Positions 41,204-46,363 of a stretch of DNA of 64,000 bases are shown in pieces. Under the pieces are notes generated by a model. That model was given only the letters and a program-made list of their open reading frames with translations. It was not told where the DNA came from and did no database searches. This stretch comes from Bacteroidota bacterium. GTDB taxonomy: Bacteria > Bacteroidota > Bacteroidia > UKL13-3. How positions within the stretch are numbered: position 1 is the stretch's first letter; the number at the start of each line of letters is the position of its first letter. The translations under genes and the position numbers were made by a program. The stretch is from positions 248,993 through 312,992 of the forward strand of contig CANHVU010000001.1 in the NCBI GenBank assembly GCA_947464275.1, in the 5' to 3' direction.

Positions 41204-41283
41204 CCATCCGTTGTTGTCGTCCTCACCCAAATCAATATATTTGAATAAAGCTAATAATTGCAGGCGAGGAAGGCTGCAATGGC
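41204..41283 (+). repeat. Array repeat copy A
   Basis: Full-length copy of the 80-bp element. The 5' part is CCGTTGTTGTCGTCCTC, the centre AATCAATATATTTGAATAAA, the 3' part GCGAGGAAGGCTGCAATGGC. TTG is followed after 19 bp by TATATTTG (41236-41243). It precedes the small membrane-protein gene at 41303. Confidence 0.8.
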
Positions 41284-41302
41284 GAGTTATGCGTAACTTT
41301 AA

Positions 41303-41854
41303 ATGATGACACGACCAAACATATACATTTTACTCGGGACAGTTTTTATAATTCTGACTTGGCTTTTTGTTGGACTATATCGAGATGACGAATTTTACGA
41401 GCCACACTTGTTTACAAAGTACCGACCGACAATTAAAGTAAATTTTTATTCTCCAATTGGTATGTCAGACCAAACTGTTATAGACCTTCCGATAGACAAG
41501 CAAGTAGAAGAAATATCTTTTCAAGAGTTTGTAATTAAGCGACATATCCAAAACAACAGTAATGCCCAACTTTGGTATTTACCAATAATACTTATTCAGC
41601 TGACATTGACATTTTTTAGTATTGGCATTTTAAAAAGTAAACTTGAATTGGTATATAAGAAATGGTATTTGCCGACACATTTTGTTATCTGTTTAATAAT
41701 TACCTCAATTGGGCTTGGTTTCATCTTGTCATTTGATAATTTATTTTCAACAGTAATCAGTGGGTTATTAATACTGATAATTAATTATTGGGCTCTTATT
41801 TTGCTATCTAAACAAAGGTTTGCAAAGAACGGAAATGAGAAAAACTACATATAA
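41303..41854 (+). CDS. Small membrane protein, array gene 1
   Basis: A 183-residue protein with an N-terminal membrane segment (about 7-25), a soluble loop of about 65 residues, and three further hydrophobic segments (about 93-110, 126-146, 150-170). The order, a short exposed loop between the first and second helix, is seen in several uncharacterised small proteins. I recognise no family. It lies between repeat copies A and B, is AT-rich like the rest, and has no other partner gene. Confidence 0.6.
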   Translation: MMTRPNIYILLGTVFIILTWLFVGLYRDDEFYEPHLFTKYRPTIKVNFYSPIGMSDQTVIDLPIDKQVEEISFQEFVIKRHIQNNSNAQLWYLPIILIQLTLTFFSIGILKSKLELVYKKWYLPTHFVICLIITSIGLGFILSFDNLFSTVISGLLILIINYWALILLSKQRFAKNGNEKNYI

Positions 41855-41900
41855 CTGCACCAACCCAAAAGGCGGGGTTTCGTGTTCCAAAGACAGTTTT

Positions 41901-41979
41901 AGCCAATGTTGTCGTCCTCACCAAAACCAATATGTTTTGAATAAAGCTAATAATTGCAAGCGAGGATGCCTGCAATGGT
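41901..41979 (+). repeat. Array repeat copy B
   Basis: Full-length copy with AGCCAATGTTGTCGTCCTC at the 5' end and GAGGATGCCTGCAATGGT at the 3' end. The -7-like box is changed to TATGTTTTG. It is followed at once by a palindrome block. Confidence 0.8.
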
Positions 41980-41984
41980 AGAAA

Positions 41985-42142
41985 ATGAAAGTAGTATTAA
42001 TTGGTGCGGGAAATTGTAGAGACGTAACATGTTACGTCTCCAGCTAAAAAGACGTTGCGTGCAACGTCTCTACATGGTTGTTAGAGAATTCGATGGTTTT
42101 CTTGGGTCAAGGTAGAGACGTTTAATTAAACGTCTTTACAGC
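41985..42142. repeat. Palindrome block 1 (three REP-like hairpins)
   Basis: Contains three near-perfect palindromes at 42019-42040, 42050-42069 (AGACGTTGCGTGCAACGTCT) and 42116-42135 (AGACGTTTAATTAAACGTCT). All share the arm AGACGT. The block starts with ATGAAAGTAGTATTAATTGG, which reads as MKVVLIGAGN, the start of a Rossmann-fold protein that is not continued. A second copy lies at 46010-46166. Confidence 0.8.
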
Positions 42143-42217
42143 CGATGTTGTCGTCCTCTTCAAAATCAATATATTTGAATAAAGCTAATAATTGCAAGCG
42201 AGGACGCATGTAATGGC
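42139..42217 (+). repeat. Array repeat copy C
   Basis: Full-length copy. CAGCCGATGTTG, 19 bp, then TATATTTG; 3' part GCGAGGACGCATGTAATGGC. CGTCCTC in the 5' half can pair with GAGGACG in the 3' half (7 bp). Confidence 0.8.
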
Positions 42218-42224
42218 AGGAAGG

Positions 42225-42313
42225 CGAAAACATCATAGCTTTTAAATATATTTGTTTTATGAATGTTTTGGTAAAAAGCGGTTTCAAATACAAACTAGGG
42301 GGATAATCAAGTA
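42225..42313 (+). repeat. Leader repeat 1
   Basis: About 80 bp upstream of array gene 2, with TTTGTTTTATGAATG and GGTAAAAAGCGGTTT. The same leader follows repeat copy D at 43049-43130. It contains TATATTTG (42247-42254), matching the -7 consensus, but no TTG at the right distance. Confidence 0.6.
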
Positions 42314-42329
42314 CCAATTGCAAATACAT

Positions 42330-42974
42330 ATGAAAACTTTTTTTCTTAGCAATAAAATTTTTATATTTTTTATATTCTTTTGTTCAAATTTAATTGGACA
42401 AAACATTCAAGATAGTGCTAAAATTTATTGTAATAGCTTATTTGAAAAGAAAGGACTAAATGATATCGAATCTTTAGATTCTCATCAGATATTGGAAAGT
42501 ATTTCCAAGGATATTGCTTTTTTTAGTGTGTATAATAGGCTAATATCACATGGTCCATTAATTGGTTATTGCGCTGTTTATAAGTCAACTGGTAAAATAT
42601 TCATAGTTAATACTATTACTGATTTTAATAGGTTGATGGATTTTGTTGATTTTAAAAGAATAACTCCATTAGAAAAATTGATGCTTTACATTAGGCTATC
42701 TAAAGAATTTCAATTTGATGAAATATTATTGGATAAAGATGATAGCATTTGTTTTAATAAACAAATTATTGATGACTTAAACTTACGCTTTCTCACTTTA
42801 CCAAATTGTTTGACTAAAGAAAGTAATTTTAAAAACCATATTTTAAAAATAAACATAAGAACACATCTTCAAGTAGTAAATTTAAGAATAAAATCAAGTG
42901 AGAAGTACATTTACATGAAAAAGAAAAAACCTATTGAAGCTAATGGCTGCTTTAAAAATTTAATATGGAAATAA
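42330..42974 (+). CDS. Exported hypothetical protein, array gene 2
   Basis: The start is placed at the ATG at 42330 (MKTFFLSNKIFIFFIFF), which begins a signal peptide ending NLIGQ; the ORF opens at 42252 inside the leader repeat. The 214-residue product would be periplasmic or outer-membrane located. The mature part is mixed helix and strand with LDSHQILESISKDIAFFS near residue 42. I recognise no family. It lies between repeat copies C and D. Confidence 0.55.
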   Translation: MKTFFLSNKIFIFFIFFCSNLIGQNIQDSAKIYCNSLFEKKGLNDIESLDSHQILESISKDIAFFSVYNRLISHGPLIGYCAVYKSTGKIFIVNTITDFNRLMDFVDFKRITPLEKLMLYIRLSKEFQFDEILLDKDDSICFNKQIIDDLNLRFLTLPNCLTKESNFKNHILKINIRTHLQVVNLRIKSSEKYIYMKKKKPIEANGCFKNLIWK

Positions 42975-42994
42975 GCCGGGAAGTAAGCATTTTA

Positions 42995-43048
42995 CAGCCA
43001 ATGTTGTCTTCCTCGCCAACATTAATATATTTGGGTAATGCCAATAAA
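42995..43048 (+). repeat. Array repeat copy D (5' half only)
   Basis: Contains CAGCCAATGTTGTCTTCCTC, 19 bp from TTG, then TATATTTG (43026-43033), but breaks off before the GAGG hairpin and joins the leader repeat. Confidence 0.7.
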
Positions 43049-43130
43049 AACATCATTGCTTTTAAATACATTTGTTTTATGAATGGTTTGGTAAAAAGCG
43101 GTTTGCAAATACAAAACTAGACGGATAATA
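43049..43130 (+). repeat. Leader repeat 2
   Basis: Second copy of the leader seen at 42225-42313, with TTTGTTTTATGAATGG and GTAAAAAGCGGTTTGCAA. Its -7-like box is TACATTTG (43067-43074). It directly precedes the lipoprotein gene at 43133. Confidence 0.6.
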
Positions 43131-43132
43131 TT

Positions 43133-43714
43133 ATGAAATACTTCACATACTTTATTTTTCTATTGGCTTTATATTCTTGTGATAGAAAATCAAATAATAA
43201 TTTAGACTGTGTTCAAAATAACGATAGTTTAAATATGGATTCCATTGTTAAAGAAGTGGAGTTGTCCTCAACAACTCCTTTTTTAAATAATTCATTATTC
43301 AGTTACAACGCAACAGGTTTAGATAAATTTGAAGACACTATTTACGCTTATGAAATTGACACCTTTCTAAAAAATTACCCAAGTGATGGCTCAACTTTTG
43401 GTGACATGAAAAGCTACTATCAAGCAACTGAAAAACTTGATAAAATGATTGAAGAAGTTTATAAGAAAATTTATAAAAAACTCAAAAACAAACAGGACAA
43501 AAAGTTATTCAAAATATCACATGACAACTGGAAAAGATATTTCGAAAGTGAAGCAACTTTTTTACACGAAATTTATTATACCAAAGAAATAGAATATGGG
43601 TTTGGAAGAGAGCATTCAGTAACACAAGCACAATGGGTATTTCAAATAGCTAGGCAAAGACTAATTTTACTGAAAAACATTGACGAGCAGACTTATACAA
43701 ATAATTACAATTAG
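43133..43714 (+). CDS. LprI/DUF1311-like lipoprotein, array gene 3
   Basis: A 193-residue lipoprotein: signal ending LLALYSC with Cys 16. The C-terminal 110 residues, with a heptad-like DKMIEEVYKKIYKKLKNKQDKKLF, HDNWKRYFESEATFL and a final QWVFQIARQRLILL, match the helical layout of the lysozyme inhibitor LprI-like (DUF1311) family, in which Gln/Trp and Arg positions are conserved. The usual Cys pair is not evident. If the match is right it could protect the cell wall against muramidases. It lies between copies D and E. Confidence 0.6.
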   Translation: MKYFTYFIFLLALYSCDRKSNNNLDCVQNNDSLNMDSIVKEVELSSTTPFLNNSLFSYNATGLDKFEDTIYAYEIDTFLKNYPSDGSTFGDMKSYYQATEKLDKMIEEVYKKIYKKLKNKQDKKLFKISHDNWKRYFESEATFLHEIYYTKEIEYGFGREHSVTQAQWVFQIARQRLILLKNIDEQTYTNNYN

Positions 43715-43723
43715 TATGTTTAC

Positions 43724-43801
43724 CAGCCGATGGTTGCACCTCACCCAAATAAATATATTTGAATAACGCTAATAATTGCAAGCGAGGTTGCTTGCAATGG
43801 C
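43724..43801 (+). repeat. Array repeat copy E
   Basis: Full-length copy. CAGCCGATGGTTG, 17 bp, TATATTTG. The 3' hairpin is a perfect 8-bp inverted repeat, TTGCAAGC-GAGGTT-GCTTGCAA. The 5' pairing partner is changed to ACCTC, matching GAGGT, a compensatory change against the TCCTC/GAGGA of the other copies. ATG of the last ATGGC may be the start of gene 4. Confidence 0.8.
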
Positions 43802-44243
43802 AGAAATTTTACTAATGAAAAACGATCAAATACATTCCAATTTAATAGTTTTTGCTACACTATTTTTTAGTGTTGCTATTGTTATACTTTTCTTTATTAT
43901 TAATTGGAAGGACGATAATTCCATTCCTTACAACATAAAGTTTATTATTAATTTTTGGCTAACAATTGCTTCTTTGGTTAATATTATCACTCTCTTAAAC
44001 TGGAAATTTGTTTACTATGATATTGACCATATTTATTATCGTCCCATGTATTCAAAAAAGATGGTAGTAGTGAAGAAAACAGATATTATTACATTAACTA
44101 ATCTGTTTACATTTAATGATTATTTGAATTACAGAATACAATATAAAAATATTTCAGGAGAAATTCAATCAATAGTTTTCCTAAGTTTGAAATCAAAAAA
44201 AGAAATTCGATACATTATAGACCAAATTAAGTATGAGGATTAA
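43797..44243 (+). CDS. Small membrane protein with PH-like domain, array gene 4
   Basis: About 148 residues from the ATG at 43797, which is the last ATGGC of repeat E; an ATG at 43815 is equally possible. Two membrane helices (about 17-38 and 48-68) are followed by YYDIDHIYYRPMYSKKMVVVKK and alternating strands ending DQIKYED, like the bacterial PH-type domains of small membrane proteins. It is followed 5 nt later by gene 5, so the two form one transcription unit within a single cassette. Confidence 0.55.
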   Translation: MAEILLMKNDQIHSNLIVFATLFFSVAIVILFFIINWKDDNSIPYNIKFIINFWLTIASLVNIITLLNWKFVYYDIDHIYYRPMYSKKMVVVKKTDIITLTNLFTFNDYLNYRIQYKNISGEIQSIVFLSLKSKKEIRYIIDQIKYED

Positions 44244-44248
44244 ATTAT

Positions 44249-44641
44249 ATGGTGAAGTTATCTTTTAAAACAACTGCCTTAATAATATTATTTGCGGGCT
44301 TATTGATGTTTTTATATTTTAAAAATCGTAAAAAAGTAATCAGGGATGACTTTAAATTATATTATTATGATAATTACGGCTATTGCAATGTTTATCTTGG
44401 AGGAATGGCTGTATTGCCATCTGGCTGTGATTCTGCCAAATGGAACGATTTAATCATTGTAACAAAAAGCGATAAATGGAGATGTTCAATAGATAAAGAA
44501 TGCTACTTTATTATTGATATGAATAAATATTTGGCAGACCCAAGGCAAGAGTTAAGTTCAGGAGTTAAAGGCCCCTACAGTTTGGAGGAGTTTTCTCTAA
44601 TTGATCCTTTAAAAGAAGTTTCCTTTGAAGGAGCTTATTAA
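44249..44641 (+). CDS. Small membrane-anchored protein, array gene 5
   Basis: A 130-residue protein: one N-terminal membrane segment (about 8-24) and a soluble domain with two Cys-bearing parts (GYCNVYLGGMAVLPSGCDSAKW, CSIDKECYFII). The exposed domain is predicted outside the cytoplasm. I recognise no family. It lies directly upstream of repeat copy F; a remnant of its first codons is repeated at 45350. Confidence 0.55.
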   Translation: MVKLSFKTTALIILFAGLLMFLYFKNRKKVIRDDFKLYYYDNYGYCNVYLGGMAVLPSGCDSAKWNDLIIVTKSDKWRCSIDKECYFIIDMNKYLADPRQELSSGVKGPYSLEEFSLIDPLKEVSFEGAY

Positions 44642-44649
44642 GTTTGTTC

Positions 44650-44728
44650 CAGCCGATGTTGACGTCCTCTCCAAAATCAATAAATTTGAATAACGCTAAT
44701 AATTGCAAGCGAGGAAGCCTGCAATGGC
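44650..44728 (+). repeat. Array repeat copy F
   Basis: Full-length copy. CAGCCGATGTTG, 19 bp, TAAATTTG (the variable nn position of the consensus differs here), 3' part GCGAGGAAGCCTGCAATGGC. No gene follows for 90 bp; the next repeat copy comes at once. Confidence 0.8.
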
Positions 44729-44765
44729 GATATACTTGTAGTTAGTAAAAAATGAATAACAATTT

Positions 44766-44821
44766 TAGCCGATGTTTGCCTCCTCACCAAAATAAATATA
44801 TTTGAATAAAGCTAATAATTG
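44766..44821 (+). repeat. Array repeat copy G (3' end lost)
   Basis: TAGCCGATGTTTG, 18 bp, TATATTTG, then it breaks off at GCTAATAATTG, where gene 6 begins. The TTG of the repeat may act as its start codon. Confidence 0.75.
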
Positions 44822-45004
44822 AAAACAGTGAAAATTGGAAATTTTTTAAATACGGTTGATAAGAAATACCTATATAGTTTAGGATTAGCATTTATTGTTA
44901 TAAGTGTTATTAATTCTGTTATTGTAAAAGAAATTGATTTTTTAGCACTTATAACGGGGCTATTAATTTTAATATTTACGCATAAATATAAAAGAAATGG
45001 ATGA
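44819..45004 (+). CDS. Two-helix small membrane protein, array gene 6
   Basis: A 61-residue protein with TTG at 44819 inside repeat G, or GTG at 44828, as start. Two hydrophobic stretches (about 18-35 and 40-54) are separated by a short KEIDF turn and end in a basic KYKRNG. It overlaps gene 7 by 8 nt (ATGGATGA), so translation is probably coupled. No family recognised. Confidence 0.5.
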   Translation: MKTVKIGNFLNTVDKKYLYSLGLAFIVISVINSVIVKEIDFLALITGLLILIFTHKYKRNG

Positions 45005-45344
45005 ATTTTTTAGCACAAAGGTTATTAAATTATTCTTGTTAATAGCATTGATTATGGGGGTTCCCATGTTAATTGAATCTCATTTTGTGTTTTCGAATTC
45101 TCCAGAATATAAAGTTTTACAAGATTCAATAGTTTCTTTATATAAAGCCAAAAATCAAGATATTGAATTTGGTTTTTTTGTAGGAGGTGACTTAAATATT
45201 TTAGATGAAAAAGATAGCACCTATAAAAGTAAATTGTATTTTAAAATATACAACGATTTTGAAAAGAAAAGTGTGGTAGGTGTTGTGTTTAATAAAAAAG
45301 AAACCTCCATAAACACTATACAATCCATAATGTATGAGGATTAA
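44997..45344 (+). CDS. Small membrane-anchored protein, array gene 7
   Basis: A 115-residue protein with one N-terminal membrane helix (about 8-24) and an exposed domain of about 85 residues: helix, then FGFFVGGDLNIL and alternating strands, ending SIMYED. The end is like that of gene 4 (KYED), and the next 26 nt (TTAAATTATATG...) repeat the sequence after gene 4. No family recognised. It lies between copies G and H. Confidence 0.5.
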   Translation: MDEFFSTKVIKLFLLIALIMGVPMLIESHFVFSNSPEYKVLQDSIVSLYKAKNQDIEFGFFVGGDLNILDEKDSTYKSKLYFKIYNDFEKKSVVGVVFNKKETSINTIQSIMYED

Positions 45345-45345
45345 A

Positions 45346-45366
45346 TTATATGATGAAGTTATCTTT
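45346..45366 (+). pseudogene. Remnant start of a gene-5-like gene
   Basis: After the stop of gene 7, ATGATGAAGTTATCTTT matches the start of gene 5 (ATGGTGAAGTTATCTTTT) and then turns directly into repeat copy H (CCAGCC). It appears to be a deletion scar that removed all but the first six codons. Confidence 0.55.
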
Positions 45367-45367
45367 C

Positions 45368-45446
45368 CAGCCAATGTTGTTGTCCTCGCCAAAATCAATA
45401 TATTTGAATAAAGCTAATAATTGCAAGCGAGGTTGTTTGGGATGGC
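45368..45446 (+). repeat. Array repeat copy H
   Basis: Full-length copy. CAGCCAATGTTG, 19 bp, TATATTTG, 3' part GCGAGGTTGTTTGGGATGGC, in which the hairpin is degraded. It precedes the SUKH gene. Confidence 0.8.
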
Positions 45447-45467
45447 GAAACATTAAGACTCAAATTT

Positions 45468-45950
45468 ATGACACCGACAATTGCCGACATTATAAACACA
45501 ATTAAGACAAACCACGAAGAGTTTGGAATTACGCTTTATGACGAAGCTACTGATTTTGACATTGCAGAATTTGAAAAGAATAAACTTGTATTACCTCAAG
45601 ATATTAAAGCTTTTTATAAGTTCAGTAATGGTTTTTACTCTAAGGAGGACATGTTTAGAATTATTCCATTGGACGAAGTAATTTCAAATGGATGTGACAA
45701 TTATATTGAAGGAGAGTATGCCTTTCATATTGCAGAATATATGATTTATTGTGATATGTGGACACTTAGTATTAATCCCAAAGACAAAAATGTTTATACC
45801 ATTTACAACAAGACCAATGAATTAGTAATATTGACAAATTCGTTTGCTGAATTTTTGGAGAGATTTTTATCTGGCGGGGTTTTCAAAGGACTTTATGACT
45901 GGAGAGAACAAATAATATCAAATAGAAAACCTACTGCTAACAACACTTAA
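45468..45950 (+). CDS. SMI1/KNR4 (SUKH) family protein, array gene 8
   Basis: A 160-residue soluble protein of the SUKH superfamily. Recognisable are LPQDIKAFYKFSNGFY near residue 42, with the helix and SNG turn that opens the fold, RIIPLDEV near 63 and a final NSFAEFLERFLSGG. SUKH proteins often act as immunity proteins against nuclease or deaminase toxins of contact systems. No toxin gene is present in the window, so it would be an orphan immunity gene. It lies between copy H and palindrome block 2. Confidence 0.75.
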   Translation: MTPTIADIINTIKTNHEEFGITLYDEATDFDIAEFEKNKLVLPQDIKAFYKFSNGFYSKEDMFRIIPLDEVISNGCDNYIEGEYAFHIAEYMIYCDMWTLSINPKDKNVYTIYNKTNELVILTNSFAEFLERFLSGGVFKGLYDWREQIISNRKPTANNT

Positions 45951-46009
45951 CAACCTAATCTTCATAGTCTTGTGTGCAGGGCAAAGAGGAGGGTACTAAG
46001 AATTAATAA

Positions 46010-46166
46010 ATGAAAGTAGTATTATTTGGTGCGGGAAATTGTAGAGACGTAACATGTTACGTCTTTAGCTAAAAAGACGTTGCGTGCAACGTCTCTACAT
46101 GGTTGTTGGGAAATTCTAAGGTTTTCTTGTGGCAAGGAATAGACGTTTAATTAAACGTCTTTGCAG
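46010..46166. repeat. Palindrome block 2
   Basis: Second copy of the block at 41985-42142, in the same orientation, with the same three palindromes and the same truncated ATGAAAGTAGTATTATTTGG start. Together the two blocks flank array genes 2-8 as direct repeats. Confidence 0.8.
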
Positions 46167-46268
46167 CATTCGCCCACGTTGGTTTTGGGTGTGTTTGTTT
46201 TGTTACCATACTATCGTTCCTATGGAGCTTTTAGTTTTGGGGAAGCATTTCATGTTAATCATCCAATT

Positions 46269-46296
46269 TATTGCAAGCGAGGATGCCTGCAATGGC
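46269..46296 (+). repeat. Array repeat copy I (3' end only)
   Basis: TATTGCAAGCGAGGATGCCT followed by GCAATGGC, equal to the 3' part of copy B. No 5' half is found. It marks the end of the array. The rest of 45951-46332 holds no gene apart from the palindrome block. Confidence 0.65.
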
Positions 46297-46332
46297 AGGA
46301 AAATGATTGTGGTAATAAAAACTATTTACACA

Positions 46333-46363
46333 AAAAAAGCTGCCCTTGTGAGGCAGCTTTTTT
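46333..46363 (-). terminator. Terminator for DUF2723 gene
   Basis: AAAAAAGCTGCC and GGCAGCTTTTTT form a 12-bp stem with a 7-nt loop. It works both ways and lies 19 nt beyond the stop of the minus-strand gene. Confidence 0.88.

Follow-up and report, generated by a model that had tools for sequence, protein, structure and literature searches.

A set of repeat copies in a 64-kb stretch of the genome of a freshwater Bacteroidota bacterium (the stretch is hereafter the window, the genome G000) was compared with related genomes. The sequences suggest that these copies are probably elements derived from repetitive extragenic palindromic (REP) sequences and their REP-associated tyrosine transposases (RAYTs), containing a sigma-A promoter of their own and retained as seams for both expression and recombination in a gene array. 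Nine copies, eight that include a 5' half (A to H) and one that is a 3' half (I), lie between positions 41204 and 46300, all on the plus strand, and the open reading frames (ORFs) between them are small, interchangeable and on the same strand as the copies. A functional promoter in the repeat is likely, and the case for it rests on the -7 box (TAnnTTTG); the -33 half (TTG) weighs little.

Probable promoter boxes in the repeat copies

The promoter words sit where an earlier note on this DNA had placed them: TTG-N19-TANNTTTG begins at 41214, 42148, 43004, 44659 and 45377 (copies A, C, D, F and H), and the gap is 17 in copy E (43734) and 18 in copy G (44776). The broader claim of that note, that every copy with a 5' half has a promoter match, holds for seven of the eight, in which TTG-N17/18/19-TA(T/A)ATTTG points toward the next gene; the box of copy B is spoiled (TATGTTTTG). 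Gaps of 17-19 in the window copies compare with 19-21 in the consensus. Copy A (41204..41290) is a full REP doublet with TTG at 41214-41216 and the -7 box TATATTTG at 41236-41243 (gap 19), and a 183-aa ORF begins 67 nt past the box start. Copy B, also a full doublet (41896..41984; TTG at 41909-41911, spoiled box at 41931-41939), is followed by a palindromic module and has no ORF within 110 nt. The full doublet C (42135..42221; TTG at 42148, TATATTTG at 42170-42177, gap 19) precedes a 214-aa ORF at 160 nt, and copy D, a 5' half only (42991..43047; TTG at 43004, TATATTTG at 43026-43033, gap 19), a 193-aa ORF at 107 nt. Between these two copies and their ORFs lies a 58-bp leader module (42227-42284 and 43047-43104, 95% identical) that holds its own TATATTTG/TACATTTG and has four further copies at locus L037 of a related genome, G003. 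Behind copy E, a full doublet (43719..43805; TTG at 43734, TATATTTG at 43754-43761, gap 17), the ORF lies at 43 nt with its ATG inside the 3' end of the repeat. The full doublet F (44646..44732; TTG at 44659, box TAAATTTG at 44681-44688, gap 19) has as its neighbor copy G, a 5' half only (44762..44820; TTG at 44776, TATATTTG at 44797-44804, gap 18), with a GTG start codon at 31 nt that is ATG in the sister species. Copy H, again full (45364..45450; TTG at 45377, TATATTTG at 45399-45406, gap 19), stands before a SUKH-family ORF at 69 nt, and copy I (46270..46300), where the array ends on the right, is a 3' REP hairpin without a promoter box that adjoins conserved flank.

Across the whole window, TTG-N17-21-TANNTTTG occurs 12 times on the plus strand and nine times on the minus strand, and seven of the 12 are the repeats. 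Dinucleotide shuffles of single copies on the plus strand gave P = 0.0008-0.004 for the two-box match and P = 0.013-0.046 when only the -7 box was required. Since the copies are related to one another, the match counts as one ancestral occurrence plus retention, not as seven independent hits.

The -7 box is the promoter word of the host itself. Promoter statistics covered 464 kb of the host genome and 218 genes with upstream gaps of ≥80 bp; TAHHTTTG starting at -50 to -11 of these gene starts was found in 35 same-strand cases versus five on the opposite strand, with a peak at -30 to -21. The earlier view of the box as a Bacteroidota-type promoter word is thereby supported, and in the repeat the box is aimed at the downstream gene. 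TTG was slightly enriched at gaps of 18-19 before host genes. The -7 box of Flavobacterium johnsoniae is likewise TAHHTTTG, with starts 4-5 nt past the box and a weak -33 element (PMC6847099); this value replaces the 6-9 nt that had been expected. Promoters of F. psychrophilum are consistent with the host pattern (PMC9723704). A scan of the array for Escherichia coli sigma-70 promoters returned 40 promoter-like sites where 30.6 ± 5.0 were expected, from a model that is uninformative in Bacteroidota.

Relatives of the repeat were sought in the genus and family, and long-spacer array copies occur in G000, in G003 (a pond metagenome-assembled genome, C8_MAG_00008) and in G004; among the matches listed for the 58 family genomes scanned there was no further strong full-length one, and weaker or partial REP matches fell in 3 of 14 genera. 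Over 18 aligned array copies from three related genomes (the misaligned copy g3b was excluded), the -7 box had 2/108 changes versus 78/792 elsewhere in the repeat (P = 0.0018, uncorrected for kinship and a guide only), or two changes where ∼11 were expected. The nn positions of the box had 6/36 changes, as TAHHTTTG predicts. The box was retained in 12 of 13 copies with an ORF within 110 nt versus 6 of 13 others (one-sided P = 0.015, grouping chosen post hoc), and half copies without the 3' hairpin (G, and g3c and g4b of the sister species) place it 29-31 nt before the start codon, near the genome-wide peak. The earlier note had also singled out copy F as differing only at the free nn positions; the change does lie there, though it is not specific to F, as TAAA recurs in several sister-species copies. 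TAAATTTG may be a long-standing allele and not a recent neutral change, and private neutral drift in copy F was rejected, the variant being common to the sister-species copies.

REP character of the repeat and its RAYT relatives

Read from its sequence, the repeat consists of two REP hairpins in inverted orientation (NGCC-stem-GGCG TCCT CGCC-stem) that have decayed. The undamaged form found across the genus, AGCC-GATGTTGGCG-TCCT-CGCCAACATC, spacer, ATTGCAGGCG-AGGA-CGCCTGCAAT-GGCT, makes two inverted REP hairpins, and the full array copies hold both REPs in inverted orientation. Among 65 distinct REP contexts in the genus the NGCC foot is present in 57 and the arms are fully paired in 37, with four covarying arm types (ATTGCA/TGCAAT, GTTGCA/TGCAAC, GATGTT/AACATC and ATTGTA/TACAAT); the canonical GTAG/GGAG foot is not present in these REPs, and NGCC takes its place. 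Hairpins of the array copies are degenerate. The 5' hairpin in the window is ruined, with fold energies between 0 and -4.6 kcal/mol for the copies that were tested versus -16.2 kcal/mol for the undamaged type; the majority of the 3' hairpins can still form (-4.6 to -10.8 kcal/mol), so that a transcript from the box would open with a stem-loop in full copies.

REPs of this kind flank RAYT genes elsewhere in the genus. In G002 (contig C229) a RAYT (NF047646, E = 3e-17, below cut-off) lies between two such REPs, each within ∼60 bp, and in G003 (contig C43) a REP stands directly upstream of a RAYT fragment at the contig end. At a further G003 locus (L046 1-297, contig C10) a REP hairpin is inserted in frame in the 3' end of a RAYT remnant (peptide MIAGEDACNG). 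G000 has 11 Y1 transposase matches and a RAYT that is 78% identical, with only a degenerate REP upstream. Other RAYT clades in the genus are flanked by GCC hairpins of their own; those of a second clade in G000 (L173, G000:C14:49381-49875) read GGTTGGTG-TTCT-CACCAACC, have a GCC foot and occur in at least four copies. The start codon of the G003 RAYT is preceded by TTGAATAAAGC, the 11 bases that make up the end of the box and what follows it in the long spacer (TTTGAATAAAGC), and the G000 RAYT has TAATTTTG-TAACGC-ATG at its start. This likeness is suggestive only; the long spacer may be the leftover of a RAYT leader.

Two other REP-related structures were observed. A 160-bp module with two copies in the window (41983-42142 and 46008-46167, 92% identical) contains nested palindromes, GTAGAGACG...CGTCTCTAC, headed by the gene-start fragment ATGAAAGTAGTATTA; it adjoins the 3' side of copy B, is found likewise after several repeat copies in G003 and G004, and looks like a separate GTAG-type REP cluster. 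In G006 (L131 1010-1895, contig C3) two inverted REPs enclose, in RAYT-like placement, a lipoprotein-like gene of 230 aa that is a possible REP-bounded passenger.

Cassette exchange and array cargo

A two-gene cassette occupies two positions in the arrays of sister species, joined once via a 54-bp repeat and once via a repeat copy. This mobile cassette (G-ORF1/G-ORF2, 58 + 115 aa; 44828..45344, plus strand) has different array places in G000 and G003, the only two among 10 genomes of the genus in which the 115-aa G-ORF2 is present. A second two-ORF cassette (E-ORF1/E-ORF2, 148 + 130 aa; 43797..44641, plus strand) is common to G004 (97/95% amino acid identity) and split apart in G003. The order in G000 is E-ORF1, 54-nt joint, E-ORF2, copy F, copy G, G-ORF1, G-ORF2, joint with a stub of E-ORF2, and copy H; in G003 it is E-ORF1, joint with stub, element, G-ORF1, G-ORF2, joint, E-ORF2, element; and G004 has E-ORF1, joint and E-ORF2 without the G genes. 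The 54-nt joint is duplicated on the plus strand of the window (44212..44265, other copy 45313-45366) and would be the second crossover site of the mobile cassette. These arrangements suggest that repeat copies serve as recombination seams. The simplest path would be a circle carrying the joint, the stub, the element and the G genes, with crossover in one species at the 54-nt joint and in the other within the promoter half of the element. Ordinary homologous recombination would suffice for such a move in either direction.

Among the array proteins, the 160-aa SMI1/KNR4 (SUKH-1) protein encoded behind copy H (45468..45950, plus strand; E = 1e-8) alone scored above a curated cut-off. A lipoprotein-like ORF at 43133-43714 weakly matches the lysozyme inhibitor LprI (E = 0.001, short of the Pfam cut-off); this ORF and the SUKH gene hint at immunity-type cargo. 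The right flank from 46270 on is the same in G004 (95%), and on the right the array is bordered by a strong intrinsic terminator (46333-46363), placed between copy I and a convergent TMEM260-like gene. An Rfam scan of the window found one tRNA and nothing else.

Competing explanations and known systems

The explanation that we consider probable runs as follows. Decayed REP doublets, of the type that flanks RAYT/Y1 genes in the genus, would hold a Bacteroidota sigma-A promoter in their spacer, and one long-spacer form would have come to make up the seams between same-strand array genes in three related species. Ordinary homologous recombination between copies, or via other short repeats, would bring genes in and out, and a 5' half left before an incoming gene would provide a TAnnTTTG ∼20-110 nt upstream of its start, from which transcription could begin. 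Decay has ruined the 5' REP hairpin and spared the -7 box, and the 3' REP hairpin would form a leader stem-loop in most full copies. Several observations count against this explanation. Short-spacer REP doublets and single REPs outside the array lack the box, so the box is not a trait of the REP family, and the array copies, whose hairpins are degenerate, may not be acted on by any of the several RAYTs of the host. The -33 TTG had 8/54 changes versus 78/792 elsewhere (P = 0.24), sits in the ruined stem of the REP hairpin and is gone from four sister-species copies that retain the -7 box. Selection on the -33 box was not seen among the aligned copies, and of the selection on the promoter that had been proposed earlier only the part concerning the -7 box stands, that box being kept above the repeat background. 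The box itself is lost in copy B, in g3f and in the G003 copies on C36 and C32. Shared ancestry makes the conservation and context tests non-independent, and the context test was post hoc.

An account in which the box is a hitch-hiker is unlikely. A long-spacer doublet would have chanced to hold TAnnTTTG, possibly from a RAYT leader, its copies would have been multiplied by unequal recombination and the match kept by recent ancestry, with the array genes driven by other promoters or barely expressed. All copies are indeed one family, the -33 element is unconstrained, loss of the box is tolerated in 8 of 26 copies, and the position of the spacer word directly before the ATG of the G003 RAYT means that the box could be a relic. 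The low number of changes in the -7 box, the way in which its retention tracks a downstream gene, and the half copies that place it at the usual distance of the host all argue against that account. A system in which RAYTs drive the cassettes, with REP hairpins on both sides letting the enzyme cut out and insert whole genes in the form of single-stranded circles (comparable to an integron but run by another enzyme), is very improbable: the non-transposase gene between two inverted REPs in G006, the cassette joints at elements and the Y1 transposase matches in the genome are in its favor, but the array hairpins are degenerate and the 5' one nearly foldless, the observed joint is accounted for by homology, and no homology-free empty site was found. 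We would also regard as a long shot an integron-like gene-capture platform built of RAYT/REP parts, in which each seam would be recombination site and promoter at once, a captured gene would be expressed from its own seam, and a RAYT would move cassettes via single-stranded hairpins.

Least credible of all, and extremely improbable, is an integron-like array of the CALIN type (cluster of attC sites lacking integron integrases), in which the repeats would be attC sites recombined by IntI and the promoters incidental. The array does consist of small, unrelated same-strand ORFs with exchange between places, including a SUKH gene, bounded by 87-bp repeats. However, the attC core sites RYYYAAC/GTTRRRY were found in none of the eight copies, and the genome had no intI match above the TIGR02249 cut-off (a CALIN may lack IntI anyway). 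The repeat consists of two separate hairpins that also occur at RAYT flanks, half copies that lack one hairpin or the other persist, and the 54-bp repeat that forms a second joint bears no relation to attC. The integron frame of the earlier note was rejected on the core sites, IntI and the RAYT-associated REP doublet. A single long attC-like hairpin was rejected as well, since on both strands most whole copies, folded as single-stranded DNA, did no better than their shuffled versions.

If the boxes fire, the REP-derived repeat would be both joint and switch for shuffled genes, and a newly joined gene would land behind a ready-made promoter. With joint and switch in each seam, array position would not set expression, unlike the case of a single upstream promoter. 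It would also add a further case to the question of what role REPINs (paired, inverted REPs) have in the cells that carry them, from a phylum in which RAYTs and REPs have received little study.

REP/REPIN systems with RAYTs share with the repeat the inverted pairs of short hairpins, the conserved foot, the intergenic spread and the flanking Y1 transposase genes (PMC6006769); here, the foot is NGCC instead of GTAG/GGAG, the spacer is long and holds a promoter box, the hairpins are decayed and the copies form ordered array seams. For RAYT subclass 2.6 of the Bacteroidetes, flanking structures of an atypical kind are described that recur at other sites in the genome (PMC6006769), and by analogy the repeat and its RAYTs appear to fit this subclass. 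CGTC-tagged REPs are palindromic repeats also known in Bacteroidetes, and GGCGTCC includes CGTC, but in those REPs CGTC is an unpaired end tag, whereas here the bases lie in stem and loop (PMC3733652). Integron arrays and CALINs are similar in their small same-strand ORFs and boundary repeat; attC core sites and an IntI above cut-off are missing here, and the promoter is in the repeat, not in the cassette. As many cassettes of large chromosomal integrons carry their own promoters (PMC8876359), the contrast with integrons drawn in the earlier note was overstated. Correia elements of Neisseria and BrickBuilt of Porphyromonas gingivalis, the latter from the same phylum as the host, are small non-autonomous elements that lie near genes and bring promoters with them (PMC10969869, PMC4596501); those are scattered, whereas the copies described here share one orientation, lie between array genes, would act as joints and have a box of the sigma-A TAnnTTTG type. 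Promoter-carrying miniature inverted-repeat transposable elements and REPINs are already known, and the unusual point is that one element would unite a REP doublet, a promoter and the seam between shuffled array genes.

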